DNA from: Gracilibacillus suaedae
GTDB lineage: Bacteria > Bacillota > Bacilli > Bacillales > Amphibacillaceae
Assembly (NCBI RefSeq): GCF_017599345.1
Contig: NZ_JAGFVL010000020.1
Coordinates: 62,001-126,000, forward strand
Reading direction: 5' to 3'
Length of the DNA: 64,000 bases
Shown: positions 26,162 through 59,523 of the stretch, in pieces
Position numbering within the stretch: position 1 is the first letter of the stretch
Layout of the letters: every line of letters starts with the position of its first letter
Made by a program: the position numbers and the translations under genes
The notes under the pieces: model-generated
What the model was told of the DNA's origin: nothing
The model's database searches: none
Seen by the model: only the letters and a program-made list of their open reading frames with translations

Positions 26162-26808
26162 CTTAAGTTCCTTCCTTTCTCCACCGCTTCAATAAATGCT
26201 TTTGCTCTATTGGTTAAATCATCTAAATAATTCTTTGTAATCTGATCCGCCTGTTTAACTAATGTACTTCCCGCTCCTACTGCAACAGCTCCTGCCTCGA
26301 TGTATGCCCTAGTATTATCAACATCTATACCACCTGTAGGCATTAAAGGAATATGTGGAAGCGGACCTTTGATATCCTTAAAAAACCTCGGCCCTACTAC
26401 ACTAGCAGGAAATATTTTAATCATATCTGCCCCTTTTTCATAGGCTGTTAAAATTTCAGTCGGTGTAAAGGCACCAGCAACAGATACGGCACCATATCGT
26501 TTCGTCATTTCAATCGTTTCTTCTTTTACTGTTGGCGAGAAAATAAACGATGCACCGGACATTAAGGCTGCACGTGCTGTTTCCGCATCAAGCACGGTTC
26601 CTGCCCCAACCATTACCTCGTCACCTAATTCGTCTTTTACTTTCTCTATAAGTGTTAACGCTTTAGGTGTTTCCACTGTTATTTCAAGCGATGTTATCCC
26701 GCCATCACGTAATGCTTGCGCAATAGGAATAATTGTTTCAGGTGTGGTTTTGCGCATTACCGCTACTACACCAGTATCTAACATCCTTTGTAATACAGTC
26801 ATTTGCAT
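26158..26808 (-). CDS. kdgA: KDPG aldolase
   Basis: A 216-residue class I aldolase that splits 2-keto-3-deoxy-6-phosphogluconate into pyruvate and glyceraldehyde 3-phosphate, and may also use 4-hydroxy-2-oxoglutarate. The Schiff-base lysine is K131 in DMIKIFPAS and the catalytic Glu is E42 in [15 protein letters not shown] and MPTGGI are typical. It follows kdgK by 5 bases and overlaps xynB by 4, inside the glucuronate operon, and takes the product of KdgK. Nothing is unusual. Confidence 0.95.
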
Positions 26809-26813
26809 TCAAC

Positions 26814-27770
26814 CTACCTTTTGACATCGATATTATCTAGCTGGAACATAAATTGATGTAATTCTTCTTGATCTGGTAATCCTTCGTAATCACCTTTCAC
26901 TTGTGTTTGCATTGCCCCTACAGCATTCGCCCGCTTGACCGCATCGCTTAACGGAAGTTGATCAAGCATACCAGATAAAAAACCTGCCACGAAGCCATCA
27001 CCTGCCCCGACAGGGTCGATCACTCGTGGAACTGGAAATCCTTCGATATATCCGCTTTCATTTTTAGTCTTAAAATACGCTCCCTTTTCTCCAAGCTTAA
27101 TAATAACTGTTTCACAGCCACGAGCTAAAAATGGATCGGATACCTGTTCTGGATCTGTTTCATCAAATAAGAAGTCCGCCTCTGCTAAGCCTGGTAAAAC
27201 AATATCTGATAACGCCACCATTTCTGTTAGCACAGTTCTTGCTTTTTGTTCTGACCATAGCTTCCGTCTTAAATTCGGATCAAAAACGACTTTTACCTGG
27301 TGCTTACGAGCTAGCTTCATCATTCGAATCACAGTATGATAGGCAGAATCACTCAAAGCTGGCGTTATTCCGGTCACATGGAGATATTTGGCATCTTTTA
27401 TATAAGCTTCATCGATATCATCCGTTTGTAAAGTACTTGCTGCCGATCCTTTGCGATAATAACTGACACGGATATCATCAGCATGGCGGATTTCTTTAAA
27501 ATAAAGCCCTGTCGGAAAATCCGGATCTCGTTTAACTTGGCTGACATCGATTCCTTCTCCACGCACCGTATTTAAAATATATGTACCAAATTCATCTTTC
27601 CCTAGCTTACTAACCCAGCCTACGTTATGCCCAAGGCGAGCAAGACCTATTGCTACATTAGTCTCGGCTCCACCTACATTTTTGGAAAAGGTCTCTGCAT
27701 AGCGCATCATTGGAATTGATACGGGAGTAAATACAACCATTGATTCACCAATCGTAATGACATCTTGCAT
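26814..27770 (-). CDS. kdgK: 2-keto-3-deoxygluconate kinase
   Basis: A 318-residue PfkB/ribokinase-family kinase that phosphorylates KDG, the product of mannonate dehydratase, to KDPG. It has GGAETNVAIGLARLG near the N-terminus and the anion-hole/catalytic motif DPVGAGDGFVAGFL near residues 250-265, in which the Asp is the base. The gene sits between uxuB (2-base gap) and kdgA (5-base gap), which supports KDG rather than fructose as substrate. A GGGGTG site overlaps the end of uxuB, so translation is coupled. Confidence 0.93.
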   Translation of the reverse strand: MQDVITIGESMVVFTPVSIPMMRYAETFSKNVGGAETNVAIGLARLGHNVGWVSKLGKDEFGTYILNTVRGEGIDVSQVKRDPDFPTGLYFKEIRHADDIRVSYYRKGSAASTLQTDDIDEAYIKDAKYLHVTGITPALSDSAYHTVIRMMKLARKHQVKVVFDPNLRRKLWSEQKARTVLTEMVALSDIVLPGLAEADFLFDETDPEQVSDPFLARGCETVIIKLGEKGAYFKTKNESGYIEGFPVPRVIDPVGAGDGFVAGFLSGMLDQLPLSDAVKRANAVGAMQTQVKGDYEGLPDQEELHQFMFQLDNIDVKR

Positions 27771-27772
27771 GA

Positions 27773-28618
27773 TTACACCCCACTATATGCCATAAATCCG
27801 CCATCAACTGGAATACAAGTACCGGTTACAAAACCACTTGCTTCTTCATCAACAAGCCAAAGCAATGTTCCTAATAAATCTTCTGGCGATCCTAGGCAAC
27901 GCATTGGTGTATGATCAATAATTTTTTGCATACGTGGTGTTGGTGAACCATCTTCATTTGTTAAAAGCGGTCTGTTTTGATCTGTTAAAAAGAAGCCGGG
28001 AGCAATTGCATTGACACGTACATTCGCTTCCGCCATATGCACTGCAAGCCATTGTGTAAAGTTATTGATCGCAGCTTTGGCAGCACTGTATGCTGGCACT
28101 TTTGTCATTGGACTCGGTGCACTCATTGATGAAATGTTGATAACGGTCGTTTTCCGTTCCACCATCCGCTCGGCAAAAACTTGTGTTGGAATCAAGGAAC
28201 CGATAAAATTAAGGTTAAATACCGATGAGAAGCCTTCTGTTGTCATATCAAAAAATGTGCGGATGGAGGGGGCTGACAATTCTTCTTTTTCAAACTTTTC
28301 ACTTGCTGTTGTACCGTCAGGATGATTACCTCCTGCACCATTTATCAGAACGTCACAGGCTCCATATTCTTGGAATATTTTTTCTTCGGCTTTCATCACC
28401 GCTTCTCGATCGAGTACATCACAGCCAATTGCCAACGCTTCTCCACCTTGTTCTTTAATAGCATCAACTACCTTTTCTGCTTTTTCGTAAGTGCGATTTA
28501 ATATGGCTACCTTCATGCCTTGACGTGATAATTCCTTAGCCATTGCTCCACACAGGACACCGCCGCCACCAGTAACAACGGCTACTTTATTTTTTAAGTT
28601 CGAATGGATTGGTAACAT
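27773..28618 (-). CDS. uxuB: D-mannonate oxidoreductase, SDR family
   Basis: A 281-residue short-chain dehydrogenase that interconverts D-fructuronate and D-mannonate. The nucleotide motif reads [22 protein letters not shown] is the second motif, and the catalytic set is S in NISSMSA with YSAAK. This SDR type is the Gram-positive counterpart of E. coli UxuB (a different fold) and is recognised by its position between uxuA and kdgK. Its start lies 32 bases inside the end of uxuA, an unusually long overlap, with AAAGGAT as ribosome binding site. It provides mannonate for UxuA. Confidence 0.9.
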
Positions 28619-29693
28619 CTAATTCATCCTTTCCTTTGACTAATTGGTAAGCATCCCATAATCCCCATAAATACATAATGCCAAGTGCTCGATCATATAG
28701 CCCATAACCTGGTCTACACTGCTCATCCCAAATATGCCTACCATGATCAGGTCTCGTGTAGCCTGTAAAGTTAATATCATGATAGGCTCTGACAATCTCG
28801 TCAATGCCAATTGAACCATCATTTGTTCGGTGAGATGTTTCAATAAAATTACCATTATCAAATAATTTCACATTACGAATATGAGCAAAATGAATACGAT
28901 CTTGAAACTCATGAATCATCGAGACAATATCATTATCTCTTCGAACTCCTAATGCACCTGAACATAAAGTAATCCCATTATACTCGCTTGGCACCAGACG
29001 CATAATGTTACGGAGGCGCTCTTGTGTTGTCACTATCCGCGGAAGACCGAAAATTTCCCATGGCGGATCATCTGGATGAATCGCTAATTTGATATCATAT
29101 TCTTCACATACTGGAATGACTTTTTGTAAAAAGTACCGTAGATGATCGATTAAATCATCTTCTGTCACGTGCCGATAGGCTGCAAATAAATCCTTTAGTG
29201 TCTCTAATCGTTCCGGCTCCCAGCCTGGCATCGTATAATCAGGATTTGCGGCAATTTTTTCGACCAATTCTAACGGATCCATATCTGTCACTTTTGCCTT
29301 TTCATAGAAAAGTGCTGTCGATTGATCAGGTAAGGAACCAAATAAATCGGTTCTTACCCAATCAAATACTGGCATGAAATTATAGCAGATGACTTTTACA
29401 TTTACTGCCGCTAAATTTTTGATCGTCTCTATATAATTCGTAATATATCGATCACGGTCTGCTCTCCCTAGTTTAATAGATTCATGAATATTGACACTCT
29501 CCACAACATCTAGGTGTAATCCATAACGGTCTACTTGTTGCTTCACTTCATAGATGCGATCTTGCGGCCATATTTCACCTGGAGGAATATCATGCAATGC
29601 CCAAACAATACCCTCCACTCCGGGAATTTGTTTAATTTGAGATAAAGTTACACTATCATTCCCCTCACCAAACCATCGAAACACCATTCGCAT
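28587..29693 (-). CDS. uxuA: D-mannonate dehydratase
   Basis: A 368-residue UxuA-family TIM-barrel enzyme that dehydrates D-mannonate to 2-keto-3-deoxygluconate. The N-terminal [17 protein letters not shown], the [14 protein letters not shown] block, AIHPDDPPW and [12 protein letters not shown], with metal-binding histidines, are diagnostic. It follows aguA by 17 bases and runs 32 bases into uxuB. It forms the committed step of the glucuronate branch after fructuronate reduction. Glucuronate isomerase (uxaC), needed to supply fructuronate, is not in this window. Confidence 0.96.
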
Positions 29694-29710
29694 GTTGTCA
29701 CATCCCTTCT

Positions 29711-31756: not shown

Positions 31757-31773
31757 ACCTACTCTCCTTCTCT

Positions 31774-32451
31774 CTAAACAAAAAATTCTGGATTTTGATC
31801 TTTTAGCTGATCTTTTTCTATTTCAACGAGCTGTAGATGTTCCATCGCTGCTTTTTCAGCTGTCTCAGGATCTCTGCCAGCTATTGCTTCAAATATATTA
31901 CGATGCTGGGCGACGATGATTTTCCAATCATGATTGACAGAAAGACGTAGTAGACGTAAACGATCAAATTGAACATTCATTCGTTTTACCATATTCCATG
32001 TTCTATGTTTACCACAACCTCGATACATTAACTGGTGAAATTCATCATCTAATTCGAATAAGCGTTGATAAGATCCTTTTTCTAATGAAAATTCCTGAAG
32101 TGTTAAGTTGGATTCCATTTGCAACAAATCTTCTTTTTCCATTGTTTCGGCTGCTTCTCTTACAATAGCTTTTTCAATATTTTCTCTGACAAAGCGTCCT
32201 TCCTCTACTAATGCTAAATTAATTTTAGTCACAATAGTTCCAATTTGTGGATAGACCCCTAGCAATTCTTCTTGATTTAATTGTAGAAAAGCTTCTCTAA
32301 CTGGCGTTCTGCTAACATTAAGCTTATCCGAGATTTCTTTTTCAGATAGCTTTGTTCCAGGGGCAATTTCCCCATTCATAATTTGTGTTTTAATCGTGTT
32401 ATACACATAATCCCGTGACGATCCTCTTGTTCTTTGACTTTGAGTGACCAT
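31774..32451 (-). CDS. GntR/FadR-family regulator of the glucuronate operon
   Basis: A 225-residue regulator with an N-terminal winged helix (about 10-80, [20 protein letters not shown]) and a C-terminal FCD ligand-binding helical domain (about 90-220) with metal-type histidines ([20 protein letters not shown]). It leads the operon ahead of aguA and matches in position the UxuR/AxuR regulators that respond to glucuronate or mannonate intermediates. It probably represses its own operon through the palindrome at 32467-32476 next to the start point. AAGGTG precedes the ATG. The effector is inferred from context. Confidence 0.88.
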
Positions 32452-46328: not shown

Positions 46329-46715
46329 TTACATATTTATCTTCATTTTTTCTAAGCTAGACATAATTTCCTCTACAGACTTACCTAAGTTAGATTCCAC
46401 CGCTGCAATATAAGAACCTTCTACAACTGGAATATCCTCAGCGATACGAATACTCGAAGACTCCAGCAATTCTAGCGCCATTTCTGCATTCATTTTTGCA
46501 CTACCCAGATCGTAAAAGATAATAGCGCCACTATCACTTACAGCTTGTTCAATGGCTTCTTGGATTTTTTCAATACTGGTACCAATTTCATTATCCTCTG
46601 TTCCACATGCCAGCGAAAGTGGCACATCATCAATAACTTGATCAATCAACGCCTTGATTCCTTGACCAATTGAATAACTGTGGGAAACAATAATAATTCC
46701 TACCTTTTGTGACAT
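46329..46715 (-). CDS. dhaM: Dihydroxyacetone kinase phosphotransfer subunit DhaM
   Basis: A 128-residue EIIA-mannose-like protein. The phospho-acceptor is H11 in IIVSHSYSIGQGI; AIIFYDLGSAKMNAEMA is the other typical block. It takes a phosphate from HPr and passes it to ADP bound on DhaL, so dihydroxyacetone is phosphorylated at the expense of PEP. Only the EIIA domain is present, as in Firmicutes; the EI- and HPr-like extensions of E. coli DhaM are missing. It is the last of dhaK-dhaL-dhaM, with a 2-base gap from dhaL and GGAGG upstream. Confidence 0.93.
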   Translation of the reverse strand: MSQKVGIIIVSHSYSIGQGIKALIDQVIDDVPLSLACGTEDNEIGTSIEKIQEAIEQAVSDSGAIIFYDLGSAKMNAEMALELLESSSIRIAEDIPVVEGSYIAAVESNLGKSVEEIMSSLEKMKINM

Positions 46716-46717
46716 CT

Positions 46718-47338
46718 CTATTCCTCCAAATCGAGTACTTCGGCTAGAGCTTCAAAAATATAAAAAGAGGACATCGAACCAGGATCTACATGTCCTTTGG
46801 AACGTTCTTTGAGATAGGAAGCTCGGCCTTTCGTTGCAGCCATTTCTCGTGTGTCCTCAATCGTTGCCTGACAAACTTCTAGTATACCGTACCAATCTTT
46901 TACATCTTCTTCTTGTAAAAAATTCGCCACTTGCTTCCATACATCATACATGGTTTTCTCGCCGAAATCTGCTTTACCGCGAGCTTGTAGCCCTTCAACT
47001 GCATCATTTATCGCTTGTTTAAAGACGTCCTGATCTACTTCTTTCCCTTGCATTGCCAAAGACATTTTGAGAAAAGCAGTTCCATATAGCGGACCTGATG
47101 CCCCACCAACTTTCGCCATTAAAGTCATTGCAGCACTTTTGAGGACATCCGCTACGGAATCATATGTCGTATGATTAACTTTTGCAACAACTTCATGGAA
47201 TCCACGCGCCATATTAATCCCGTGATCCCCATCTCCGATCGCTTGATCTAGTTCTGTTAATTGATCTTTATGATCAAACATTCTTTTTTGAATTTCTTTC
47301 ATCCAATCCTTTGCTTTATCAACCGTTAATATAATCAT
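46718..47338 (-). CDS. dhaL: Dihydroxyacetone kinase ADP-binding subunit DhaL
   Basis: A 206-residue all-helical subunit that holds ADP/ATP through two magnesium ions. The metal-binding AIGDGDHGINMARG gives the Asp pair, and VGGASGPLYGTAFLKM and GHVDPGSMSSFYI form the nucleotide pocket. It transfers phosphate from DhaM to dihydroxyacetone bound on DhaK. It lies 12 bases after dhaK and 2 before dhaM. AAAAGGAG precedes the ATG. This is the expected length and nothing is missing. Confidence 0.95.
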   Translation of the reverse strand: MIILTVDKAKDWMKEIQKRMFDHKDQLTELDQAIGDGDHGINMARGFHEVVAKVNHTTYDSVADVLKSAAMTLMAKVGGASGPLYGTAFLKMSLAMQGKEVDQDVFKQAINDAVEGLQARGKADFGEKTMYDVWKQVANFLQEEDVKDWYGILEVCQATIEDTREMAATKGRASYLKERSKGHVDPGSMSSFYIFEALAEVLDLEE

Positions 47339-47350
47339 CCAATTCTCCTT

Positions 47351-48343
47351 TTACACGTGAAATGCAATTGTTTTGACATCTTGAACTAATAGATTTTTTA
47401 ATTCGCTATCTAATTTTAATAAGGTTATCGAAAATCCTGCCATATCAAGTGATGTCATATATTCCCCTACCCAAGTTTTGTACAGTGTAATCTCTTTTTC
47501 CTTTAAAAGATCCGATACCTTTCTATTCACAATATGTAACTCCATTTCAGGTGTTGCCCCTAAACCGTTCACCATTAAGGCAACTTCTGCTTTTACATAA
47601 TTGATATCTGCTAGAACCTTGTCAACCAGAATGGTGGCAATATTATCCGCTTTCTCCAATGGTACTCGTTCTATCCCTGGCTCACCATGGATACCAATAC
47701 CAATTTCCATCTCATTATCCGCTAATGTAAAGCTTGGTTTTCCAGCAGCAGGTACAGTACATGATGATAATGCCACCCCCATAGATCGAACATTTGCAAT
47801 CGTTTTTTCAGCGACAGCTTTTACTTCTTCTAATGATGCTCCCGTATCTGCCTTAGCACCAGCTATTTTATGAACAAACACAGTGCCAGCTATTCCCCTT
47901 CTTCCCACTGTAAAAGTACTATCTTCCACAGCGACATCGTCATTAACAATGACACTGTCTACTTTTATTCCTTCCATTTCCGCCATCTCTTGTGCCATTT
48001 CAAAATTCATGACATCGCCCGTATAATTCTTGATAATTAAGAGAACGCCATTGCCACTGTCTACCGCTTTAATCGCTTCGATAATTTGGTCAGGAGTTGG
48101 AGACGTGAAGACCTCCCCTGCTACGGCTACATCTAACATACCTTTTCCTACAAATCCAGCATGTGCTGGCTCATGACCACTTCCGCCACCACTTACAATA
48201 CCAACTTTCCCCTGTACCGGCGCATCACTTCTCGAAATGACAGTTGTCCCTGGAAGCCTTTTCAAAAAGGTCGGATAAGCTTCCACTAATCCATCTAACA
48301 TTTCATCCACGACATGATTGGCATCATTTATCACTTTTTTCAT
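47351..48343 (-). CDS. dhaK: Dihydroxyacetone kinase substrate-binding subunit DhaK
   Basis: A 330-residue subunit that binds dihydroxyacetone covalently through a histidine, here in EIGIGIHGEPGI (about residue 218). GKVGIVSGGGSGHEPAHAGFVG and IIKNYTGDVMNFEMA are typical. It produces DHAP with DhaL and DhaM, feeding lower glycolysis. The gene lies 117 bases after glpD, possibly in the same long transcript, and starts the dhaKLM set with AGAGGTGATAGG upstream. Dihydroxyacetone could come from glycerol dehydrogenase, which is not in the window. Confidence 0.95.
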   Translation of the reverse strand: MKKVINDANHVVDEMLDGLVEAYPTFLKRLPGTTVISRSDAPVQGKVGIVSGGGSGHEPAHAGFVGKGMLDVAVAGEVFTSPTPDQIIEAIKAVDSGNGVLLIIKNYTGDVMNFEMAQEMAEMEGIKVDSVIVNDDVAVEDSTFTVGRRGIAGTVFVHKIAGAKADTGASLEEVKAVAEKTIANVRSMGVALSSCTVPAAGKPSFTLADNEMEIGIGIHGEPGIERVPLEKADNIATILVDKVLADINYVKAEVALMVNGLGATPEMELHIVNRKVSDLLKEKEITLYKTWVGEYMTSLDMAGFSITLLKLDSELKNLLVQDVKTIAFHV

Positions 48344-48460: not shown

Positions 48461-50113
48461 TTATTTTTTAGTTGGATGTACAGCTTCGTATGATAATAGT
48501 TCCAGTTCCTCTGTATAAGCTTGTTTTGTTTGATCGGACCAATTAAAGATCTGCTGCATCTCACTAATGACCGCTTCTTTCTCTTTTCTAACCCAGTTAA
48601 TATCGAAGAAAAGTGCACCTGTTCTGCGAATAAAAAAGTCAACTGGTTTACAAGTCGCTTCATGCTCGATGCTATATTGAAGCATAGCATATGTTACAGG
48701 TGCAAGAGAATTATCATTGGTTAAAGCTTGTTGATAGTAATCATAAACAATCGGAATATTAGAGCCATAACGCTGTACAAGCATTCTAGCCTCTTCTGTA
48801 GATAATCCTAATTCTACCCCTTTGGCGATTTGTTTTTTCATATATGCTTTAAAACCTGTTGATCCACCAACATCACCACCTGATATGGGTAAATGCTTTG
48901 TATCACTTGGATAAAAGACTTTTTTCTCAGCTTGAACCATTTTATCTCGAATGACATTTACTACATGTTCCGCCATTTTTCGATAACCAGTTAATTTACC
49001 TCCGGCAATCGAAATAAGACCAGAATCTGATTCAAAAATCTCATCCTTACGTGAAATTTCGGAAGGATCTTTTCCCTCTTCATGAATTAATGGGCGTAAT
49101 CCTGCCCAACTAGATTCAACATCATCAGCTGTAATCTTCTGATCAGGAAACATAAACGCAATTGCGTTTAATACATAATCTCTGTCTGCCACGGTCATTG
49201 TCGGGTGTGCGATATTTCCTTGGTAGACAGTATCTGTAGTTCCTACATATGTTTTACCGTCCCGTGGAATTGCAAAAACCATTCGACCATCAGGTGTATC
49301 GAAATAGATCGCTTGCTTTAAAGGGAACCGTGATTGATCAAAGACAAGGTGGATCCCTTTCGTCAATTGCAATGTTTTTCCTCGTTTCGAGTGATCTTTC
49401 TCACGAATGGTATCTACCCATGGACCAGCCGCATTGATAATATATTTTGCTTTTATTTCGTGTACTTCATCTGTTAATTGATCTGCTACTTCTACACCAA
49501 TGACACGGTCGTTTTCATAAAGGAGATTCGATACTTTTGCATAGTTTAAGGCAAGAGCTCCTTTCTCCACTGCTTTCTTCATTACTTCCATCGTTAGTCT
49601 TGCATCATCGGTACGATATTCGACATAATATCCTGCACCTTTAAGTCCTTCAGCTTTCAATAACGGTTCACGTTGAATAGCTTCTTCCCGGTTGAGCATT
49701 TTTCGACGTTCCGATTTTTTGACCCCGGCAAGGAAATCGTACACTCGCAATCCGATATTAGTTGAAAAAGGACCAAACGTCCCGTCTTGATAGAATGGAA
49801 GCATCATCCATTCCGGTGTTGTCACATGAGGGCCATTTTCATAGACTATTTCTCTTTCCTTCCCAACTTCAGCAACCATTTTCACTTCAAATTGTTTTAA
49901 ATAACGTAACCCACCGTGGACAAGCTTGGTAGATCTGCTTGAAGTACCAGCTGCAAAATCCTGCATATCGACAACGGCCACTTTCAACCCTCGTAAGACA
50001 GCATCAAGAGCAATTCCTGCACCTGTAATACCGCCACCTATTATGATCATATCCAATGAATTATGTTTCATTTGATCATACATATTAGTGCGATTTTTGC
50101 TTGAAAAAGTCAT
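48461..50113 (-). CDS. glpD: Aerobic glycerol-3-phosphate dehydrogenase
   Basis: A 550-residue FAD-dependent dehydrogenase that oxidises glycerol 3-phosphate to DHAP and passes electrons to menaquinone at the membrane. The FAD motif is MIIIGGGITGAGIALDA; GTSSRSTKLVHGGLRYL and GPWVDTI are conserved; the C-terminal DAO domain carries PVTYAMLQYSIEHE. The start is the ATG at 50113, which follows AAAGGGGAG; a frame extension to 50140 has no site. It is downstream of glpK with a gap of 121 bases that holds no clear terminator, so it may share the glpF promoter. No GlpP-type leader is seen directly upstream. Confidence 0.95.
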   Translation of the reverse strand: MTFSSKNRTNMYDQMKHNSLDMIIIGGGITGAGIALDAVLRGLKVAVVDMQDFAAGTSSRSTKLVHGGLRYLKQFEVKMVAEVGKEREIVYENGPHVTTPEWMMLPFYQDGTFGPFSTNIGLRVYDFLAGVKKSERRKMLNREEAIQREPLLKAEGLKGAGYYVEYRTDDARLTMEVMKKAVEKGALALNYAKVSNLLYENDRVIGVEVADQLTDEVHEIKAKYIINAAGPWVDTIREKDHSKRGKTLQLTKGIHLVFDQSRFPLKQAIYFDTPDGRMVFAIPRDGKTYVGTTDTVYQGNIAHPTMTVADRDYVLNAIAFMFPDQKITADDVESSWAGLRPLIHEEGKDPSEISRKDEIFESDSGLISIAGGKLTGYRKMAEHVVNVIRDKMVQAEKKVFYPSDTKHLPISGGDVGGSTGFKAYMKKQIAKGVELGLSTEEARMLVQRYGSNIPIVYDYYQQALTNDNSLAPVTYAMLQYSIEHEATCKPVDFFIRRTGALFFDINWVRKEKEAVISEMQQIFNWSDQTKQAYTEELELLSYEAVHPTKK

Positions 50114-50234: not shown

Positions 50235-51776
<1,542 letters not shown>

Positions 51777-51804: not shown

Positions 51805-52647
51805 TTAAACTGCTTCCTTTTCAGAAGAGCTGTTGGATGACTTAATTGGCCCATTATGCTTTTTCAACTCTGCAGTTAACGCTACTCCTAATATAACTAC
51901 CATCACAATCGACATGATCCAAAATAAAAGCGTGATGTCACCAACAAAGATAGCGTTATAAAAAACTGCTCCATAAACCCCACCGATAATCGGACCTATT
52001 ACCGGTATTAAAGCATAACCCCAATCGGAATCTCCCTTTCCAATAATCGGCAAAACAGCATGAGCAATTCGGGGGCCTAAGTCTCTGGCCGGATTAATCG
52101 CATAACCCGTTGTTCCCCCCAGTGACATCCCGATTGCTACAATTAACAAACCTACTATGGCAGGATTTAGCCCTTCCGTAAATTGATTGGCACCGATAAA
52201 TAACAGCCCCATAATTAATACGAAGGTACCAATTATTTCACTGACTAAATTGGAAGGTTTACTTTTTACGGCAGGGTCTGTAGAAAATACTGCTAACTTA
52301 GCCCCTTTATCTTCTGTTTCCTTCCAGTGCGGTAAGTATTGAAAGAAGACAATGACCGCTCCAATAAATGCACCGATCAATTGCGCCCCAACATACATCG
52401 GAACTTTTGCCCATGGGAATTCACCAATTGAAGCAAAACCTATAGTTACAGCAGGGTTGATATGTGCTCCAGAGACATTTCCTACGGCATAAACTCCCAT
52501 CGCAACAGCTAGCCCCCAGCCTATTGAAATGACGACCCAACCTGCACCTTCTGCTTTTGATTTCTTCAAAACCACACCACCGACAACACCGCCTCCAAAG
52601 ATAATCAGAATCATCGTTCCTATCAACTCAGCTAAAAACTCTGACAA
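51805..52647 (-). CDS. glpF: Glycerol uptake facilitator
   Basis: A 280-residue aquaglyceroporin with six membrane helices and the two half-helix NPA motifs, in GAHINPAVTIGF and GYAINPARDLGPRI; the D after the second NPAR is a mark of glycerol-conducting members. It lets glycerol enter for trapping by GlpK. The start is TTG 52647, 6 bases after GGGGTGG, giving MSEFLAELIGTMIL, which aligns with other GlpF starts. The frame runs further upstream through the leader terminator, but that part is not coding. It is the first gene of the glpF-glpK-glpD unit. Confidence 0.93.
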   Translation of the reverse strand: MSEFLAELIGTMILIIFGGGVVGGVVLKKSKAEGAGWVVISIGWGLAVAMGVYAVGNVSGAHINPAVTIGFASIGEFPWAKVPMYVGAQLIGAFIGAVIVFFQYLPHWKETEDKGAKLAVFSTDPAVKSKPSNLVSEIIGTFVLIMGLLFIGANQFTEGLNPAIVGLLIVAIGMSLGGTTGYAINPARDLGPRIAHAVLPIIGKGDSDWGYALIPVIGPIIGGVYGAVFYNAIFVGDITLLFWIMSIVMVVILGVALTAELKKHNGPIKSSNSSSEKEAV

Positions 52648-52710
52648 AATGATCCACCCCTTATTTTTAATAAGTTCCATCTTCAACAAGAGATGCACGT
52701 GCAGTGCCAG

Positions 52711-52787
52711 AAAAAAAGCCCACACAGCCTTTTACGCACCACTTCCTAGGAAAGTGCGCAAAATTGCTGTGTGGACTCCTTATCTCC
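52711..52787 (-). ncRNA. glpF leader with GlpP-type antitermination structure
   Basis: The minus-strand transcript begins near 52808. It contains GGAGATAAGGAGTCCA (52772-52787), then CCACACAGC's partner strands GCTGTGTGG/CCACACAGC (52766-52774 and 52720-52728) forming a terminator stem with a U7 run, and an inner hairpin (GCGCACTT/AGTGGTGCG). GlpP with glycerol 3-phosphate is known to allow readthrough of such leaders in Bacillus subtilis. The first motif recurs in the TRAP operon leader. Confidence 0.75.
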
Positions 52788-52814
52788 GACACATTTTTTA
52801 ACTTGTTAACTATA

Positions 52815-52843
52815 ACGATACACCTAAAGTAAAGCGCTGTCAA
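52815..52843 (-). promoter_or_regulatory. glpF promoter with overlapping cre-like site
   Basis: On the minus strand TTGACA (52838-52843) and TATCGT (52815-52820) are 17 bases apart. On the plus strand GTAAAGCGCTGTCA (52829-52842) matches the cre consensus at 12 of 14 positions and covers the -35. Catabolite repression of glycerol uptake is expected. Confidence 0.8.
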
Positions 52844-52942
52844 TGATTTTCTTTTCCAAAATTTTGCTCATTTGTGTTAACTTTTCAATAGAATCGTAAT
52901 ATTTACGATTAATCATGTCCATATCACGGGGTTTAACTACAT

Positions 52943-55327
52943 TTAAATATCCAGTACGAATTGATGGTGATTCTGACTAATTTGACCATTTATTTTCACT
53001 TTTCTTTCTTCCACTTTCGGTAAATAGAAGGTTATTTTGTCATATGGCAGTTGATATTCTCCAACTACTTCTGTGTTAATATCTATAAATTCACCATTAC
53101 ATGCCATCTTAATTTTGATATACGTATATTCCCCGTCTTTATAGTTGTTTGTCTGACCATCATCTTCATATATATATTCTTCCGATACCCCACTCTTTTC
53201 ATATGGGAAAAGGAGTACACCTCTCTCTTCTTCGGTATTGGAGAAGCTTATCTCTCCGTCTCGAATTGGAATGATGGCTCCTGCTTGAGCAAACATAGGA
53301 ATCGTATCTAATGGCGCTTCATTCGTTAAGCTGATTCCGCCATGATAGAATGTATCTGAATTAATATCGTACCAACCATATTCGTTATCTGGTAAATAAA
53401 CATCGCGATGACGTGCCCCCTCTTCTACCACATTACAAATCAACAATTGATCTCCTACGATAAAATCATCATTTTCTTCAAATGCTTTTTTATCATGATC
53501 AAACTGATAGAACGTAGGAGTTAAAATGGGTTTGTAATCTTTGTGTGCCTTATGCAATGCGTTATAGAAGAATGGAATCCATTTAACACGCTCTTTCATT
53601 AAGCCTCTTATGAGATCCAAATATTCTGGATACATCCAGGGAACATTTACTGTCTTATCTTCATTCCAAGAATGAATAGTAAAGCGCGGATGGAAAATTC
53701 CATTTTGTATCCAACGAATAAACAATTCAGGATCAGGAGCTTTACCTGAAAAACCTCCTACATCATGCCCAAAGTTATATACACCACTCATGCTTAGACT
53801 TAGTCCCATTTTAATATTGAAGCGGATTGTTTTCCATTCTGTAAAATTATCCCCTGACCATGTTTGCACATATTTCTGCATGCCTGCCGCTCCAGAGCGG
53901 GAAATTAGATAAGGACGTATTTCTGGATAGAATTCACGCTGAGCTTCATAAGATGCTTTCATCATTAACATTGTTTGTATTGGCTTTATATAGCTCACAG
54001 GAATCTGTTCTCCAAAGCCATTTGCTTTAGCTTGTTCATCCCATATCTCATACTCATTATTGTCATTCCAAGTAGAATCGATACCATAGGATAGTAATTG
54101 TTCTTTTATTTTATCTTTCCACCAGTTAAATGTTTCGTAATTGGTAAAATCCAAGTAAGAGCCGACATCATCCCAGAACTGAGAAATTTCTGGTTCATTC
54201 AAATCTTTAGACATAATAAAATAATTGTTATCAGCTAAGTCGTTATATAAGGGATGATCTTTTAATAATGCCGGTTTAATATTGGCACATAGCTTAATAC
54301 CATTTTCCTGAAAGTTTTTGATCATATCTTCAGGTGAAGGGATTTTGGAATAATCCCAATTAAAAACGTAACGCTTATCTCCTATACTTGTATAACCAGA
54401 TGAGAGCTGGAATGAATCACAAGGTATATCATATTCTTTACAGGATTCTACAAACTTTTTCAGCTGTTCCTGTGCGTTCGGTGCATCAGTATAAGTCATC
54501 GTTGAGCCTGAATATCCCAAACTCCACTTTGGAGGCATGATTGTTTTGCCCGTTAACCTTGAAAATGTCTCTACGACATCTTTTATTCGTGGGCCTAACA
54601 TAAAATAATAATCCAAATTTCCTTTACTCGCGTGATAATACCGATATAAACCATGATAATTATCAAGTTCATTTCCTAAATCGAAAATAGCATCACTGTA
54701 ATTATCATAATATAAACCATAAGCAATTTCCGTATGATCATTGTAGGTAATATAGTAAGGGATATGCTTATACAATGGATCAGTATACTCAGCATCATAC
54801 CCCATTGCATCTATCGTCTTCATTCGATACCGTTTACCAACTTTATTTAAATGGCCGCCTTTTTCACCGAGTCCGTAATAATAATCATTCGGATTTCTCT
54901 CCATATAATGATAAACACCAGTACCTAAGTTTTGATTAAAGTTGTAATTTTGTGTCTTTCTATCGTTAGCAATATTGATCCAGTTTTCTTTCACTTTTGC
55001 AAACCAATGAAACTTCAAGCCAGTTAAATCAATTACAACTCTTAATTTACTTGTAAAAATCTCTATCTCATTTTCAGTCTCCTGAAGCTGGAATTTAGGT
55101 AAACTAAATGGTGATAAGTCTGATTTATCTCTTCCCTCTTTAGCCACATCCTCTGCTTCTGGTGTAATGGTCCACGTTCTATTTAGTAATGGATGCCGCT
55201 CTTCAGGAATATATACTCTAAAAACGTCATCTTCTAAAATATATACATATGCAATTGTATCTTCTCCACGTAAAATAACGGTATTATTCTCTACTGTTCC
55301 CAATTTGAAATTAATATCTTTTATCAT
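52943..55327 (-). CDS. GH31 alpha-glycosidase
   Basis: A 794-residue GH31 enzyme. The catalytic nucleophile is D422 in STWNDNNEYE and the acid/base is D493 in WSGDNFTEW; LIRSGAAG-type text appears as ISRSGAAGMQKY, and HPRFTIHSW follows. An N-terminal beta-sandwich (about 1-240) and C-terminal beta domains surround the barrel. GH31 includes alpha-glucosidases, alpha-xylosidases and alpha-galactosidases; the WNDNNE form is not that of YicI-type alpha-xylosidases (KTDFGE), so alpha-xylosidase is less likely. There is no signal peptide, so it cleaves an imported glycoside. It follows the TRAP permease by 22 bases. AGCGAGGTT precedes the ATG. The substrate is unknown. Confidence 0.88.
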   Translation of the reverse strand: MIKDINFKLGTVENNTVILRGEDTIAYVYILEDDVFRVYIPEERHPLLNRTWTITPEAEDVAKEGRDKSDLSPFSLPKFQLQETENEIEIFTSKLRVVIDLTGLKFHWFAKVKENWINIANDRKTQNYNFNQNLGTGVYHYMERNPNDYYYGLGEKGGHLNKVGKRYRMKTIDAMGYDAEYTDPLYKHIPYYITYNDHTEIAYGLYYDNYSDAIFDLGNELDNYHGLYRYYHASKGNLDYYFMLGPRIKDVVETFSRLTGKTIMPPKWSLGYSGSTMTYTDAPNAQEQLKKFVESCKEYDIPCDSFQLSSGYTSIGDKRYVFNWDYSKIPSPEDMIKNFQENGIKLCANIKPALLKDHPLYNDLADNNYFIMSKDLNEPEISQFWDDVGSYLDFTNYETFNWWKDKIKEQLLSYGIDSTWNDNNEYEIWDEQAKANGFGEQIPVSYIKPIQTMLMMKASYEAQREFYPEIRPYLISRSGAAGMQKYVQTWSGDNFTEWKTIRFNIKMGLSLSMSGVYNFGHDVGGFSGKAPDPELFIRWIQNGIFHPRFTIHSWNEDKTVNVPWMYPEYLDLIRGLMKERVKWIPFFYNALHKAHKDYKPILTPTFYQFDHDKKAFEENDDFIVGDQLLICNVVEEGARHRDVYLPDNEYGWYDINSDTFYHGGISLTNEAPLDTIPMFAQAGAIIPIRDGEISFSNTEEERGVLLFPYEKSGVSEEYIYEDDGQTNNYKDGEYTYIKIKMACNGEFIDINTEVVGEYQLPYDKITFYLPKVEERKVKINGQISQNHHQFVLDI

Positions 55328-55349
55328 AACTAAACCTCGCTTCTAAAAT

Positions 55350-56654
55350 TTACATCAAACCAAATAACCTAGGTATAAATAAACTTATCCATTCAAAATA
55401 AGTGACTAATAATAAGGCAATAACCAATGGTATATACAATTTAATCAATGGTCTTACTACCGATTCTATCGAAACACCGGCAACACTACTACCAACAAAT
55501 AACGCACTTCCCACCGGTGGAGTTGTTATGCCAATACAAAGGTTAAAAACTAAAATTACTCCAAAATGAACAGGATCTACACCTATATTGGTAACAATAG
55601 GAAGAAATATTGGAGTAAAGATTAGAATCGCTGGTGTAATATCCATAAAAATTCCTACTGCTAGCAGGATGATATTCATTAACAGAAGGATGATAATTGG
55701 ATTCTCAGATATGGATAACAAGATATTGGTAATTTGCTGCGGAATACCTGCATAAGCCATTACCCATGACATAATAGAAGAAGCTCCAACCAGGAACAAT
55801 ACAATACCTGTCATTACAATCGATTCTTTTAAAATCCCTGGAATCTGTGAAATTTTGATTTGACGATAGAAAGCTGCCAGAATAGCAGAATATAATACCG
55901 CAACTGCAGCACCTTCTGTAGCAGTGAAAATCCCAGCAACAATACCGCCAATTACGACTACGATTAGAGAAAGACTTGGAATAGCATCTAATACAACACG
56001 TACTCCCTGTTTAAAGGTAACCTTTTCAGATACAGGATATTTTTCCTTTTTCGCAATAAAGTATGCTACAACCATTATCGCTAACCCCATTAAAATACCA
56101 GGTAAATATCCAGCCATAAACAATGCCGATATGGATGTACCTCCACTCACTAAGGAATAAACAATGAATGCTGTGGTAGGTGGGATTAATAAGCCAGTTG
56201 GTGCTGAAGCTATATTTACTGCTGCAGAGAAAGAAGGATCATATTTTTCCTTTTTTTGCAATGGATTCATAACACTTCCGATAGCTGCTGCCGATGCAAC
56301 AGCTGAACCAGAAATAGATCCAAATAACATGTTACCTACTACATTCGTATGAGCTAAAGACCCAGGCATTCGCCCAACAAAAAGCTTAGCCAAATTAATC
56401 AAACGGATAGCAATTCCACCATTATTCATGATACTACCAGATAACATAAAAAAGATGATGGCTAGTAATGTGAAGCTATCTATACCTTGAAACAGTTTTT
56501 GGGCTGCTGTAAATGAAATCATATCTAAAGGAACTAAGGTTAATGCAGCTAATAGCGATGAAATTCCAATTCCTATTGATATCGGTACACCTATGACTAA
56601 TAATACAAAAAAAGAACCAAATAAAATGATTGTTGCCAGTAAACTTGCATCCAC
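55350..56654 (-). CDS. dctM: TRAP transporter large permease
   Basis: A 434-residue DctM-family protein with about 12-13 membrane helices that forms the sodium-coupled transport channel. Typical text is FFMLSGSIMNNGGIAIRL near residues 70-90, the GSVMNPLQKKEKYDPSF loop, and LCIGITTPPVGSALFVG near the C-terminus. It pairs with DctQ and the DctP lipoprotein. I take the GTG at 56654 as start, 8 bases after AGAAGG and 1 base after the dctQ stop; a GTG at 56663 overlaps that site. Sodium-dependent uptake suits a halophile. The GH31 gene follows 22 bases downstream. Confidence 0.92.
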   Translation of the reverse strand: MDASLLATIILFGSFFVLLVIGVPISIGIGISSLLAALTLVPLDMISFTAAQKLFQGIDSFTLLAIIFFMLSGSIMNNGGIAIRLINLAKLFVGRMPGSLAHTNVVGNMLFGSISGSAVASAAAIGSVMNPLQKKEKYDPSFSAAVNIASAPTGLLIPPTTAFIVYSLVSGGTSISALFMAGYLPGILMGLAIMVVAYFIAKKEKYPVSEKVTFKQGVRVVLDAIPSLSLIVVVIGGIVAGIFTATEGAAVAVLYSAILAAFYRQIKISQIPGILKESIVMTGIVLFLVGASSIMSWVMAYAGIPQQITNILLSISENPIIILLLMNIILLAVGIFMDITPAILIFTPIFLPIVTNIGVDPVHFGVILVFNLCIGITTPPVGSALFVGSSVAGVSIESVVRPLIKLYIPLVIALLLVTYFEWISLFIPRLFGLM

Positions 56655-56655
56655 C

Positions 56656-57144
56656 TTATTCACCTTCTTTCTGAATGATTTTTTTATAACTGTTAATTCC
56701 TAGTAGTTTATACAAAATAATAAGCACGCCACTTATTGGTAATATGGAATAAACTAGCCCTTTTGGCACACCTAAAATAGGAGTAGTTTGAGACATTGTC
56801 ATATCAACTGCTTCCATACCGCCTTTTAATAATATAACCACTGCGAAAAAAACTACGAAGATATCATTAATCACAGTAATAATTAGCCCTTTCATTCCGG
56901 TTAATTTATTGGTAATAAAAGTTAATGCTAAATGCTTATTCGCTCCAAACGCATAGCATGCTCCTAATAAAGAAGTCCACACTAATAAAAACCCTAATAA
57001 TTCATTAGTGAAAGTACTAGGATCCTTTAAAACATAGCGTGTAAAAACTTGCCACAAGGCTCCTAGTACTAATATAACCAGTAATGAGGAAGCTACAAAT
57101 ATAATGCCGCGGTCCAACATCTTTTTTATTTTATCTACCATCAT
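56656..57144 (-). CDS. dctQ: TRAP transporter small permease
   Basis: A 162-residue DctQ-family protein with four helices. The conserved WQVFTRYVLKDPSTFTNELLGFLLVW-like region lies around residues 26-55, including TRYVL and the E in NELL. It stabilises the large permease and docks the binding protein. It lies 153 bases after dctP, a gap filled by a long hairpin, and ends just before the dctM start. AGAAGGAG precedes the ATG. No fusion with DctM is seen; the subunits are separate as in classical DctPQM systems. Confidence 0.9.
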   Translation of the reverse strand: MMVDKIKKMLDRGIIFVASSLLVILVLGALWQVFTRYVLKDPSTFTNELLGFLLVWTSLLGACYAFGANKHLALTFITNKLTGMKGLIITVINDIFVVFFAVVILLKGGMEAVDMTMSQTTPILGVPKGLVYSILPISGVLIILYKLLGINSYKKIIQKEGE

Positions 57145-57194
57145 GAAGTAACTTCTCCTTCTTTATCCTGATTTAGAAATATCTTAATGATAAT

Positions 57195-57285
57195 GGCGGT
57201 CTCATAAGGTTTAATATAATTTATAGAAATTTCACGAAATGCGTCTATCTTCATTTCGTTTGTACTGTAACCTTATGAGACTGCC
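57195..57285 (-). repeat. Long hairpin between dctP and dctQ
   Basis: A 17-bp stem (57195-57211 with 57269-57285) pairs at 16 of 17 positions, containing GGTCTCATAAGGTT. Inside it a perfect 8-bp stem ACGAAATG/CATTTCGT (57234-57259) pairs. No U-run follows. It probably protects the binding-protein mRNA and lowers permease translation, as at 10551-10636. Confidence 0.65.
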
Positions 57286-57297
57286 CAATATCATCAT

Positions 57298-58302
57298 CTA
57301 TTCATCAAGTTCGTTAATTGCGTTAATAATTTCAGCTAATCTGTCATCTTCTTTATATTCTTCATGTAATGGTTGTACTAATTCGATAAATGGCTCTTTG
57401 TTCACTTCGTTAAATTCTACACCCATCTCTTCAGCTTCGGTTACAGCTTCTTCAATCGCTTGATTCCATAATTCCGTGTGCTCTTCTCTTGTTTCATTTG
57501 CAGCCTCTTTAAAAATTTCTTTTTCTTCATCTGAAAGGCTACTCCATAATTCAGTACTAACAACTAATATATCCGGTATATTCGTATGTTCTGTATATGA
57601 GAAGTTTTTAGCTACTTCACCATGCTGACCAGTAGTCAGTGCAGTCGGATTACTCTCTGCACCATCAATTACCCCTTGTTGTAAGGAAGTATAAATTTCA
57701 TTATAGCCTAATGGTGTCGGTGTACCACCTAAAAGATCAACCATATCAATCGCAGTTTGACTGTCCATCACTCGAATATTCAAACCTTCTAAGTCTTCTG
57801 GGGTTTCAATCGGTGTATCTACAGTATAGAAACTTCGGGCGCCAGAATCAAAATAAGAAACACCTACAAAGCCCTTATCTTCAGTCGATTGATATATTTC
57901 TTGTACTATATCAGACTCCATTACACTTCTATAATGTGTATCACTTGTGAAAATATAAGGTAATGAAAATACAGCGTATTCATTTGAGAAAGATTCTAAC
58001 GCACCAGCGCTTACTTTCGTCATGTCAACACTACCGTTCTGTACTTGTTCTAACACTTCTGATTCACTACCTAAAACACCATTTGGAAATACTTCAAACG
58101 TAATATTACCGTCTGTCTTTTCTTCTACACTGTCAACAAAAGTAGTTAGTGCCTGATGAATTGGATGATCCTCACTTAAGTTATGCGCTAACTTTAGTTC
58201 TTTAGATTCTGTACCTGATGCGGAATCATTATCATCTGACTCGTTATTACCACATGCTGCTAGTATTCCTAATATCAAAAACATAATTCCTAGCTTTTTC
58301 AT
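57298..58302 (-). CDS. dctP: TRAP transporter substrate-binding lipoprotein
   Basis: A 334-residue DctP-family binding protein. A lipoprotein signal with lipobox LAAC (Cys about residue 17) is followed by the binding fold. Conserved text includes GARSFYT and LNIRVMDSQTAIDM; the Arg in IRVM(D/N) is the residue that usually fixes a carboxylate of the ligand, and GVIDGAESN is also typical. The retained Arg argues for an acidic ligand. It heads the operon dctP-dctQ-dctM-GH31 behind a 100-nt leader with a terminator. GGAGGG precedes the ATG. Possible ligands are glycosylglycerate, a uronide or another glycosylated acid; neutral glycosylglycerol would be exceptional for the family. Confidence 0.92.
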   Translation of the reverse strand: MKKLGIMFLILGILAACGNNESDDNDSASGTESKELKLAHNLSEDHPIHQALTTFVDSVEEKTDGNITFEVFPNGVLGSESEVLEQVQNGSVDMTKVSAGALESFSNEYAVFSLPYIFTSDTHYRSVMESDIVQEIYQSTEDKGFVGVSYFDSGARSFYTVDTPIETPEDLEGLNIRVMDSQTAIDMVDLLGGTPTPLGYNEIYTSLQQGVIDGAESNPTALTTGQHGEVAKNFSYTEHTNIPDILVVSTELWSSLSDEEKEIFKEAANETREEHTELWNQAIEEAVTEAEEMGVEFNEVNKEPFIELVQPLHEEYKEDDRLAEIINAINELDE

Positions 58303-58396
58303 TATTTACCCTCCTATATTGTCTTCTTGTTGTTATTTAACAAAACTTCATTTAATAAATTAATAAATTAATTATGGAAAAAAGATCCAGAAGCAA

Positions 58397-58484
58397 CAAA
58401 AAAAGATCCATCACTAAACTCAGGTACGCGTTTTCAAAAAGCCTAAAACGCCATACCTTAAATAGCTTGGATCTCCGTTTCTCC
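58397..58484 (-). ncRNA. dctP leader resembling the glpF antitermination leader
   Basis: The minus-strand leader contains GGAGAAACGGAGATCCA (58468-58484), a middle hairpin (AGGTA..GCGTTTT with AAAACGC..TACCT), and a terminator stem TGGATCT/AGATCCA whose 5' half overlaps the first motif, ending in a T7 run (58404 downward). The order of elements and the GGAGA-W-AA-GGAG-TCCA motif match the glpF leader. It lies directly after glpP. Readthrough with GlpP is a strong inference. Confidence 0.7.
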
Positions 58485-58511
58485 ACAATAATATTATTAA
58501 CTTATGGATAA

Positions 58512-58540
58512 ATCATATATTATTACTAAAACGCTGTCAA
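58512..58540 (-). promoter_or_regulatory. dctP promoter with overlapping cre-like site
   Basis: On the minus strand TTGACA (58535-58540) and TATGAT (58512-58517) are 17 bases apart. CTAAAACGCTGTCA (plus strand, 58526-58539) matches the cre consensus at 12 of 14 positions. The stretch TTGACAGCG-TTTA is shared with the glpF promoter. Confidence 0.8.
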
Positions 58541-58612: not shown

Positions 58613-59155
58613 TTATAGTTGAAAAAGATCTTTATTTGAAGTAGTAATTGCTACCGCACCACATTTCAGAGCATTTCTAATATCTTCTTCTTTTCTAATT
58701 AAGCCACCAGCTATCACAGGAATACCAGTTTGTTCAATAATATCACTTATTACAGACGGGATAATTCCCGGTAATACCTCGATATAATCAGGTTTTGTTT
58801 TTTCTATGAGCTCAATATTCTTTTCAATCGCCGAACTATCAATCGCAAATAGACGTTGAATAGCTACTATATCACTTTTCTTAGCCATGGATATTACATT
58901 TGCTCTAGTAGAAATAATTCCATCGACTTTTACTTGTCTTATTAAAAATTCCATACCGTACTGATCAACTTTTAAACCATTTATTAGATCTGCATGGACG
59001 AAAACCTTTTTATTAAACTTTTTAGCGTATTGAACAATTTGAGGTAATTGAGCAATTCTAGTTTCCAATATAATAAATAATTCATGATCACTGTTTAAAA
59101 TATAATCAAAGTCCTTCATTTTCCGAATTGCAGGTAGAACCCCTTCGAGTTTCAT
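58613..59155 (-). CDS. glpP: Glycerol uptake operon antiterminator
   Basis: A 180-residue GlpP-family protein with a small TIM-barrel-like fold. Conserved text includes VLPAIRKMKDFD at the start, VHADLINGLKVDQYGMEFLI, DGIISTRANVISMAK and VIAGGLIRKEEDI, the last being a phosphate-binding loop for glycerol 3-phosphate. It binds leader RNA of glp operons and prevents termination. The start is the ATG at 59155, 6 bases after AAGGGGGT. A frame extension to 59206 has no site. It lies just upstream of the dctP leader and 6 kb from glpF, whose leaders share a motif, so it probably controls both. It is divergent from ppc. Confidence 0.92.
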   Translation of the reverse strand: MKLEGVLPAIRKMKDFDYILNSDHELFIILETRIAQLPQIVQYAKKFNKKVFVHADLINGLKVDQYGMEFLIRQVKVDGIISTRANVISMAKKSDIVAIQRLFAIDSSAIEKNIELIEKTKPDYIEVLPGIIPSVISDIIEQTGIPVIAGGLIRKEEDIRNALKCGAVAITTSNKDLFQL

Positions 59156-59523
59156 ATTTTTACCCCCTTTTCCTTTAATGATTTGCGAATTTCTTTCATT
59201 TAGCATAAACTTATTATAGAAATAGACTCAACTATTATACATAAAAAACGTGGATTTTCAGACAATTACGACAATAAAGAAAAATCATTATTCATTTTGT
59301 CAAAATCATGTTATCATAATAGATGTGTCTATTTTATATACTATTTTCATTTATTTCTCTGACGATTCTTAAGGCAGTGTGGAATCGCTCGTCCAGTTTA
59401 AGTCCTCTAACCAATTCCAGCCAACTATCAATTGCAAGTTATTCAAAGCACGACACTATTAAATGCACACGTTTATTTCATAACATCTCATTGTAAGAAA
59501 ACTTTGAAAGGAAGTGGGACAAT
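59156..59523. other. Divergent promoter region of glpP and ppc
   Basis: A 368-base region with several TATAAT-like hexamers on the minus strand (near 59210-59245) for glpP. A plus-strand promoter for ppc is likely, but no -35/-10 pair with correct spacing stands out. No cre match and no small ORF with a ribosome binding site was found. Confidence 0.4.

Follow-up and report, generated by a model that had tools for sequence, protein, structure and literature searches.

A 64,000-nt stretch of the Gracilibacillus suaedae genome (contig NZ_JAGFVL010000020.1, positions 62,001 to 126,000), referred to here in its entirety as the window, contains an operon for a tripartite ATP-independent periplasmic (TRAP) transporter and a glycoside hydrolase family 31 (GH31) enzyme that lies within a group of glycerol genes. 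Read along the minus strand, this region comprises, in turn, glpP, leader, dctP, dctQ, dctM, GH31, leader, glpF, glpK, glpO/D, dhaK, dhaL and dhaM (Table 1). The glpP gene, placed just upstream of the dctP unit in an earlier note on this DNA, is indeed found there and encodes the only PF04309 match in this genome. Loci, genomes and contigs are designated below by L-, G- and C-numbers, respectively.

Table 1. Features of the window discussed in the text
Feature	Position	Strand	Evidence
glpP, glycerol-3-phosphate responsive antiterminator	58613..59206	-	PF04309 217.2 bits; nearest solved structure 3kts
dctP promoter	58512..58540	-	TTGACA-17-TATGAT with TTGACAGCG; read directly
dctP -35 TTGACA	58540-58535	-	17-base spacer to -10
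dctP -10 TATGAT	58517-58512	-	read directly
dctP leader, 106 nt	58398..58503	-	AAGTTAA, GGAGA-N3-GGAG at 58484-58473, terminator and inner hairpin
dctP, TRAP solute-binding protein, putative hexuronate type	57298..58302	-	PF03480; nearest chains 4n91, 4n8y, 4x8r
dctQ, TRAP small permease	56656..57144	-	NF007374 49.2 bits (below cut-off); position
dctM, TRAP large permease	55350..56663	-	TIGR00786 425.7 bits
GH31 alpha-glycosidase, predicted alpha-glucuronosidase	52943..55327	-	PF01055 285.5 bits; Asp422/Asp493; neighbourhoods
glpF promoter	52815..52843	-	TTGACA-17-TATCGT with TTGACAGCG; read directly
glpF -35 TTGACA	52843-52838	-	17-base spacer to -10
glpF -10 TATCGT	52820-52815	-	read directly
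glpF leader, 94 nt, GlpP-type	52711..52804	-	GGAGA-N3-GGAG at 52787-52776
glpF, glycerol facilitator	51805..52650	-	TIGR00861 208.5 bits
glpK, glycerol kinase	50235..51725	-	TIGR01311 764 bits
Glycerol-3-phosphate dehydrogenase/oxidase (glpD/glpO)	48461..50110	-	NF033461 581.3 bits (below cut-off); DAO, DAO_C
dhaK, dhaL, dhaM, dihydroxyacetone kinase genes	46329..48343	-	TIGR02363, TIGR02365 over cut-off (dhaK, dhaL); dhaM by eye and position
kdgA, kdgK, mannonate oxidoreductase, uxuA	26158..29693	-	tblastn 38-58 % (kdgK 28 %) to named neighbour-cluster representatives

Promoters and leaders of the dctP and glpF units

The promoter layout that the earlier note reported as shared by the two units can be read directly from the sequence, as can leaders of about the 100 nt it gave. 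Close to the start of both leaders, AAGTTAA is followed by GGAGA-N3-GGAG, and the motif region reads GGAGATAAGGAGTCCA in the glpF leader and GGAGAAACGGAGATCCA in the dctP leader. The longer motif originally proposed, GGAGA-W-AA-GGAG-TCCA, is exact for glpF only; the dctP leader has AAC as spacer and one additional A ahead of TCCA, which leaves GGAGA-N3-GGAG after AAGTTAA as the common core. Each leader folds into a terminator enclosing an inner hairpin (-41.2 kcal/mol and z -6.43 for glpF; -28.4 kcal/mol and z -3.30 for dctP), and the overlap of the motif with the 5′ half of the terminator is present in both, as claimed. In the dctP leader, GGAGA-N3-GGAG, which was taken from the glp leaders of the genus, overlaps the 5′ arm shortly after the promoter. 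The bare pattern GGAGANNNGGAGNNC has three matches in the genome, compared to four for the reversed control, and the motif by itself is therefore no better than chance. The motif, terminator and position jointly exceed chance in the genome-wide covariance search described below.

The element TTGACAGCG is present in 7/7 dctP and 9/15 glpF/glpK promoters of Gracilibacillus, and may resemble a catabolite-responsive element (cre) site, judged by the cre consensus. The glpK promoters of L018, L019 and L020, where no glpF lies between GH31 and glpK, are without TTGACAGCG and retain the GlpP leader. However, the link between loss of this element and loss of glpF is loose, because G014 keeps it at glpK and the glpF-bearing G013, G002 and G012 do not.

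Two further structures were seen in the operon. The 3′ arm of the dctP terminator is repeated at 58378-58390, after the first copy and with a T-run of its own (CTGGATCTTTTTT), and a similar additional arm is present in G009 (by eye); these are possibly tandem terminators. Between dctP and dctQ, an inverted repeat (57199-57281) with arms GTCTCATAAGG (57199-57209) and CCTTATGAGAC (57271-57281) is perhaps a partial terminator or a stabiliser that raises DctP over the permease.

Leader family and co-occurrence with GlpP

Two covariance models were used. R1 was built from 15 glpF/glpK leaders only (alignment A1), and R2 from 24 R1 matches (alignment A5). Because MAFFT aligned the stems of the two leader groups wrongly, the R1-fitted A5 was used. 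It includes the dctP leaders of G014, L079, L085 and L100; one place (L018, L078) appears twice in it, and L099 and L100 contribute identical rows, leaving 22 distinct leaders. The six glpP-linked dctP leaders of Gracilibacillus were held out; the window, L017, L025, L029, L031 and L033 were omitted from A5 because R1 also matches the antisense of their palindromic terminators.

R1 detected the dctP leader of G014, which is at a separate locus (42.2 bits, E 1.1e-5 genome-wide), and those of Aquibacillus L079 (45.8 bits), the Bacillus metagenome-assembled genome (MAG) L085 (35.4 bits) and Neobacillus L100 (35.2 bits), with E values of 2.6e-7 to 6.5e-5 in 664 kb. The window dctP leader scored 19.9 bits with R1 (E 0.051 in 183 kb). 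With R2, the six held-out leaders scored 35.9 (G013), 34.9 (window), 27.7 (G010), 24.0 (G009), 21.9 (G006) and 17.2 bits (G011), with E values from 4.6e-5 to 0.44 (G011) in 183 kb. Genome-wide, G013 and the window had E values of 0.0013 and 0.0019, respectively, the only two below 0.01, and G010 and G009 had 0.064 and 0.36. The window glpF leader, which belonged to the R1 training set, scored 90.7 bits with R2. In A5, both sides change in 17/20 pairs (10.0 in shuffles), the covariation score is 0.515 (0.194 in shuffles) and 95.4 % of cells are paired (74.7 % in shuffles), though A5 was fitted to the model and these statistics therefore favour the structure. Among the ten dctP leaders, from four genera, the terminator arm sequences differ and the pairing is kept.

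The earlier note had named a covariance search that separates the two leaders into different families as the outcome that would count against it. When the search was run they were not separated: R1 finds the G014, L079, L085 and L100 dctP leaders and R2 finds the window leader, although as a middling match. Sequence comparison thus supports the assignment of the window dctP leader to the GlpP type, in the same family as the glpF leader. An Rfam scan of the whole window at the gathering threshold matched no family; as the glpF leader was likewise unmatched, this result does not separate the two.

R2 matches also follow the distribution of GlpP. Among 120 family-level genomes, 87 had both, one had an R2 match alone, six had GlpP alone and 26 had neither (R2-positive, 88/120 with stricter filters; GlpP over cut-off, 93/120 with broken copies included). 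The sole R2-positive genome without GlpP was G025 (E 0.0024), and R2-type leaders thus mark GlpP (87/88). The known targets of GlpP in Bacillus subtilis are reported to be glpD, glpFK and glpT (PMC9604022). Of 22 additional loci (L181-L202), 21 have the leader beside glpF, glpK or glpO and one, L192 from Aquibacillus, has it before dctP. Of four further R2 places, L211 and L214 adjoin glpO and L213 a glpT-like gene (by eye), and no gene was recognised at L212.

On these grounds, GlpP-type wiring of the dctP operon is very probable. Some results tell against it. The window dctP leader is absent from the R1 genome-wide matches at E<=1, and those of G006 and G011 are missing from the R2 genome-wide matches at E<=0.5. 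On the antisense strand, palindromic glpF terminators give R2 matches of 32.2 and 26.0 bits, near the score of the window dctP leader, and a score of about 30 alone is therefore no proof. In L085, the leader stands before a second dctP, located after GH31, and in L100 it precedes a dctP-dctQ-dctM group beyond glpP-glpK-glpO, with GH31 on their other side; hence in two of the three loci outside Gracilibacillus (L085 and L100, compared to L079) the led TRAP genes are near GH31 yet not in the same run. Glycerol genes also occur near L091, L097 and L098, but dctP there has no listed GlpP-type leader, and L091 and L097 carry a LacI-type gene. The two held-out leaders (of six) that R2 did not list genome-wide, and the placing of the L085 and L100 leaders at a dctP that GH31 does not directly follow, make both the wiring and the overall explanation given below slightly less certain.

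The dctP leader might instead be an ordinary attenuator that merely resembles a GlpP site, which would fit the chance-level count of the bare motif, the weak R1 score of the window leader and the two held-out leaders that R2 did not list. We consider this improbable, as R1 finds the leader at the separate G014 locus and those of three other genera, and R2 finds that of the window.

Other GlpP-type leaders and GlpP-like proteins were encountered. A third leader in the G. suaedae genome (G000:C14:20808-20878, minus strand, corresponding to L173:5809-5879; 37.6 bits, E 5.1e-4), which was not in the R2 training set, precedes a gene for a 326-amino-acid alpha/beta hydrolase with no NCBIfam match at E<=1e-30. 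This protein has the look of a monoacylglycerol lipase. It closely resembles (by eye) a G009 protein (L073, Hydrolase_4) that likewise has a leader, and a 677-amino-acid membrane hydrolase of G009 (L078) also has a GlpP-type leader; the leaders of L073 and L078 are part of the R2 training set. Second GlpP-like proteins, 32-36 % identical to the window GlpP, were found in L074, L075, L076 and L077 (G015, G014, G010 and G016, respectively). ATP-binding cassette (ABC) transporter operons adjoin the GlpP-like genes of L074 and L077 (by eye), and in L074 R2 weakly matches a leader-like stretch (26.7 bits, E 0.099) that is divergent from the glpP-like gene.

Distribution, gene neighbourhoods and active-site residues

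A close GH31 relative (69-100 % identical) is present in 7/17 Gracilibacillus genomes, including that of G. suaedae. In six of these (G000, G013, G010, G009, G006 and G011), the TRAP-GH31 operon lies between glpP and glpF or glpK, and in G014 it is at another locus. The eight Gracilibacillus genomes with GlpP over the cut-off and without the cassette all have glpP next to glpF. In L079 (Aquibacillus), the order is glpP, leader, dctP, dctQ, dctM, GH31, glpK, glpO. No GlpF match at E<=1e-20 was found in four of the eight cassette carriers searched (G006, G009, G014 and G030), and GlpP and glpK are present in all four (glpK of G030 is at L079/L210). GH31 matches at E<=1e-200 are patchy in the GTDB family, with 15/159 genomes and 4/46 genera positive, and a plasmid search returned further GH31 homologues in 48 records. 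The cassette occurs repeatedly, among other groups in Bacillota, Vibrio and Pasteurellaceae.

Neighbourhoods were surveyed in 85 loci, made up of the best 80 of 570 GH31 relatives found in a GH31 alignment scan of named genomes and five from Gracilibacillus (L016, L017, L018, L020 and L021). Neighbour clusters were named from one representative each, with the UxuR-like regulator and the KDG-kinase-like cluster below the NCBIfam cut-offs. TRAP genes were the most frequent (dctM in 56 loci, dctP and dctQ in 54 each), and the uronate genes were glucuronate isomerase (uxaC, 39), mannonate dehydratase (uxuA, 31), mannonate oxidoreductase (21), the UxuR-like regulator (20), fructuronate reductase (16), KDPG aldolase (kdgA, 15) and KDG-kinase-like (13). 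A major-facilitator transporter cluster occurs in 23 loci, mostly enterobacterial, and most of those show no TRAP genes. In L084, dctP and dctQ are separated by a gene for a beta-glucuronidase (over cut-off), and L087 has a protein of the same cluster; in Vibrio L117, a beta-glucuronidase-like protein (below cut-off) adjoins dctP, with proteins of the same cluster in L118-L121 and L140. Six further family genomes (L204-L209) have a GH31 that is 47-48 % identical, one with an internal stop, with TRAP genes, uxaC, uxuA and mannonate oxidoreductase alongside; L203 shows no uxaC or uxuA beside GH31.

Glycerol genes were present in 15/85 loci from nine genera (Gracilibacillus, Aquibacillus, the Bacillus MAG, Metabacillus, Halalkalibacter, Neobacillus, Vibrio, Zophobihabitans and Aeromonas), where by position alone we would, as a rough estimate, expect them in some 1-2 %. 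In Zophobihabitans L147, glycerol dehydrogenase and dihydroxyacetone kinase genes directly follow GH31, and in Vibrio L117 glycerol dehydrogenase and a dihydroxyacetone kinase relative share a strand with uxuA, the UxuR-like gene and dctP.

The uxaC gene of G. suaedae is on contig C59, separate from that of the window. The window includes a xylan/glucuronate island (24653-32451, minus strand), in which a GH39-like xylosidase, a GH67-like protein and a GntR-type regulator (by eye) surround kdgA, kdgK, mannonate oxidoreductase and uxuA. The GH67-like protein (681 amino acids, 29711-31756) has the look of an alpha-glucuronidase (by eye) and would act on xylan-derived methylglucuronate, another substrate than that of GH31.

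In the alignment of DctP with its closest solved relatives, the Arg of an IRV stretch is kept, and the ligands of these relatives are reported to be glucuronate (4n91 and 4x8r) and galacturonate (4n8y) (PMC7660916, PMC11668362). TRAP binding proteins are described as normally holding a carboxylate (PMC7660916).

Active-site residues were compared in 85 GH31 sequences from 84 loci. The catalytic Asp422 and Asp493 of the TIM-barrel domain are present in 85/85. The window GH31 has Gln307, Arg319 and a loop in common with the sulfoquinovosidase YihQ of Escherichia coli, of which Gln288 is kept in 83/85 and Arg301 in 85/85. In seven further GH31 proteins from Gracilibacillus, His takes the place of Gln307, and Arg319 is replaced by Trp in six and by Tyr in one. 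Arg301, Trp304 and Tyr508 of YihQ belong to its sulfonate site; in all 85 sequences the Arg is kept, and Trp304 and Tyr508 are replaced by Phe.

Predicted function and comparison with known systems

We lean towards the following as the best explanation of the operon as a whole, namely GlpP-controlled import and cleavage of alpha-glucuronosyl glycerol, induced by the aglycone. The earlier note gave no purpose for the operon, and its function is the new part here. The dctP leader would act as a GlpP-type conditional terminator. When glycerol 3-phosphate is lacking, GGAG and the bases downstream would pair with the 3′ arm and transcription would stop before dctP; when it is present, GlpP would occupy the AAGTTAA/GGAGA-N3-GGAG region and the operon would be read. 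The putative hexuronate-type TRAP transporter would import a carboxylated alpha-glycoside, the likeliest being alpha-D-glucuronosyl glycerol, which is what glucuronosyl diacylglycerol leaves on losing its acyl chains, and GH31 would cleave it to glucuronate and glycerol. The freed glucuronate would enter the uxaC/uxuA/kdgK/kdgA route. GlpK, encoded in the neighbouring operon, would convert glycerol to glycerol 3-phosphate, which could then act through the one GlpP of the genome to induce the two operons. The sequences themselves show the build of the leaders, their covariation and co-occurrence with GlpP, the gene order and the neighbourhoods; binding by GlpP and the identity and anomeric form of the substrate are inferred. 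For the separate parts, a uronoside substrate is probable, and glycerol as the aglycone is rather likely. A broader proposal is tentative, and we hold it a little short of evenly balanced. In it, the TRAP-GH31 cassette would serve to break down alpha-glucuronosyl glycerol from the glucuronosyl diacylglycerol lipids that build up in phosphorus-starved seas, as a carboxylate analogue of the use of sulfoquinovosyl glycerol, and in some Bacillota a GlpP RNA switch would induce the cassette via the glycerol half. In one marine mesocosm starved of phosphorus, glucuronic acid diacylglycerol is reported to have exceeded every other non-phosphorus lipid in abundance (PMC4796936).

Several observations weigh against this explanation. 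No uronate genes adjoin the cassette in Gracilibacillus. No glycerol gene is shown in 70/85 loci, some of the stretches being short, and the glycerol half is less certain for this reason; the Aeromonas kinase (L156) scores under the GlpK cut-off. The loss of glpF from three of seven cassette genomes, compared to none of eight without the cassette, is a small sample. Glucosidase II (5f0e) also has an Arg, in an aligned KRY, as the counterpart of Arg319. This Arg alone is thus no proof of an anionic substrate, and was downgraded as such. The other two sulfonate-site residues of YihQ are Phe in the window GH31.

Among the alternatives, the one that survives best accepts GlpP control and takes the substrate to be another alpha-glucuronide or a free hexuronate, with glycerol 3-phosphate coupling the operon to the general carbon state, or with the cassette having landed in a glp cluster and taken a copied leader. 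Uronate genes are indeed the commonest named neighbours and glycerol genes are found in just 15/85 loci, and the solved DctP relatives bind free uronates. However, GH31 would be needless for a free uronate, glycerol genes recur by the cassette in unrelated genera and in varied arrangements, including glycerol dehydrogenase with dihydroxyacetone kinase, and the GlpP-type dctP leaders of the four genera differ in terminator sequence. We regard it as unlikely. A glycerol glycoside that is uncharged or phosphorylated, such as glucosylglycerol, floridoside or part of a teichoic acid, would account for GlpP control and for the glycerol genes, and alpha-glucosidases are common among GH31 enzymes, but it leaves the uronate genes unexplained and sits poorly with the carboxylate normally held by TRAP binding proteins (PMC7660916), making it improbable. 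Sulfoquinovosyl glycerol, on which GH31 sulfoquinovosidases are reported to act (PMC10755693, PMC11968277) and which the YihQ-like Gln307/Arg319 loop recalls, is the least probable substrate, given Phe for Trp304 and Tyr508 throughout and named neighbours that are glucuronate genes.

In the open papers searched, which leave absence unproven, two were listed in which GlpP and glycerol occur together with a TRAP transporter, and none was found that combines GH31, glucuronidase and TRAP transporter or that sets glycoside hydrolase family 31 beside glucuronide and sulfoquinovoside terms. Nor did any bring together at least four of the terms TRAP transporter, GH31, its full family name, alpha-glucosidase, glucuronate isomerase and glycerol kinase. 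Among the matches listed, none was recognised as dealing with consumption of the glucuronic acid diacylglycerol head group. Import and cleavage of alpha-glucuronosyl glycerol under GlpP control would add a TRAP-GH31 operon to the GlpP antitermination regulon as a new kind of target, and would give the GH31 enzymes that accompany TRAP transporters in several phyla a concrete candidate substrate.

The arrangement resembles in outline that of the B. subtilis glpD, glpFK and glpT leaders, in which a promoter is followed by a GlpP site and an inherent terminator in the 5′ leader and one regulator serves several operons (PMC9604022). The target here is a TRAP-GH31 operon. The use of sulfoquinovosyl glycerol by GH31 sulfoquinovosidases is like the proposed pathway, in that GH31 cleaves an anionic alpha-glycosyl glycerol of membrane-lipid origin and releases glycerol. 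Unlike those systems, the GH31 studied here has glucuronate genes as neighbours and differs at two sulfonate-site residues, and its operon has TRAP import and a GlpP-type leader. DctP appears to belong to the same binding protein family as the hexuronate TRAP transporters (STM3169, 4n91, 4n8y and 4x8r), and some homologues of these are reported to have UxuA, UxuB and UxaC genes alongside (PMC7660916); to such a transporter, the operon described here adds a GH31 glycosidase and a GlpP-type leader.

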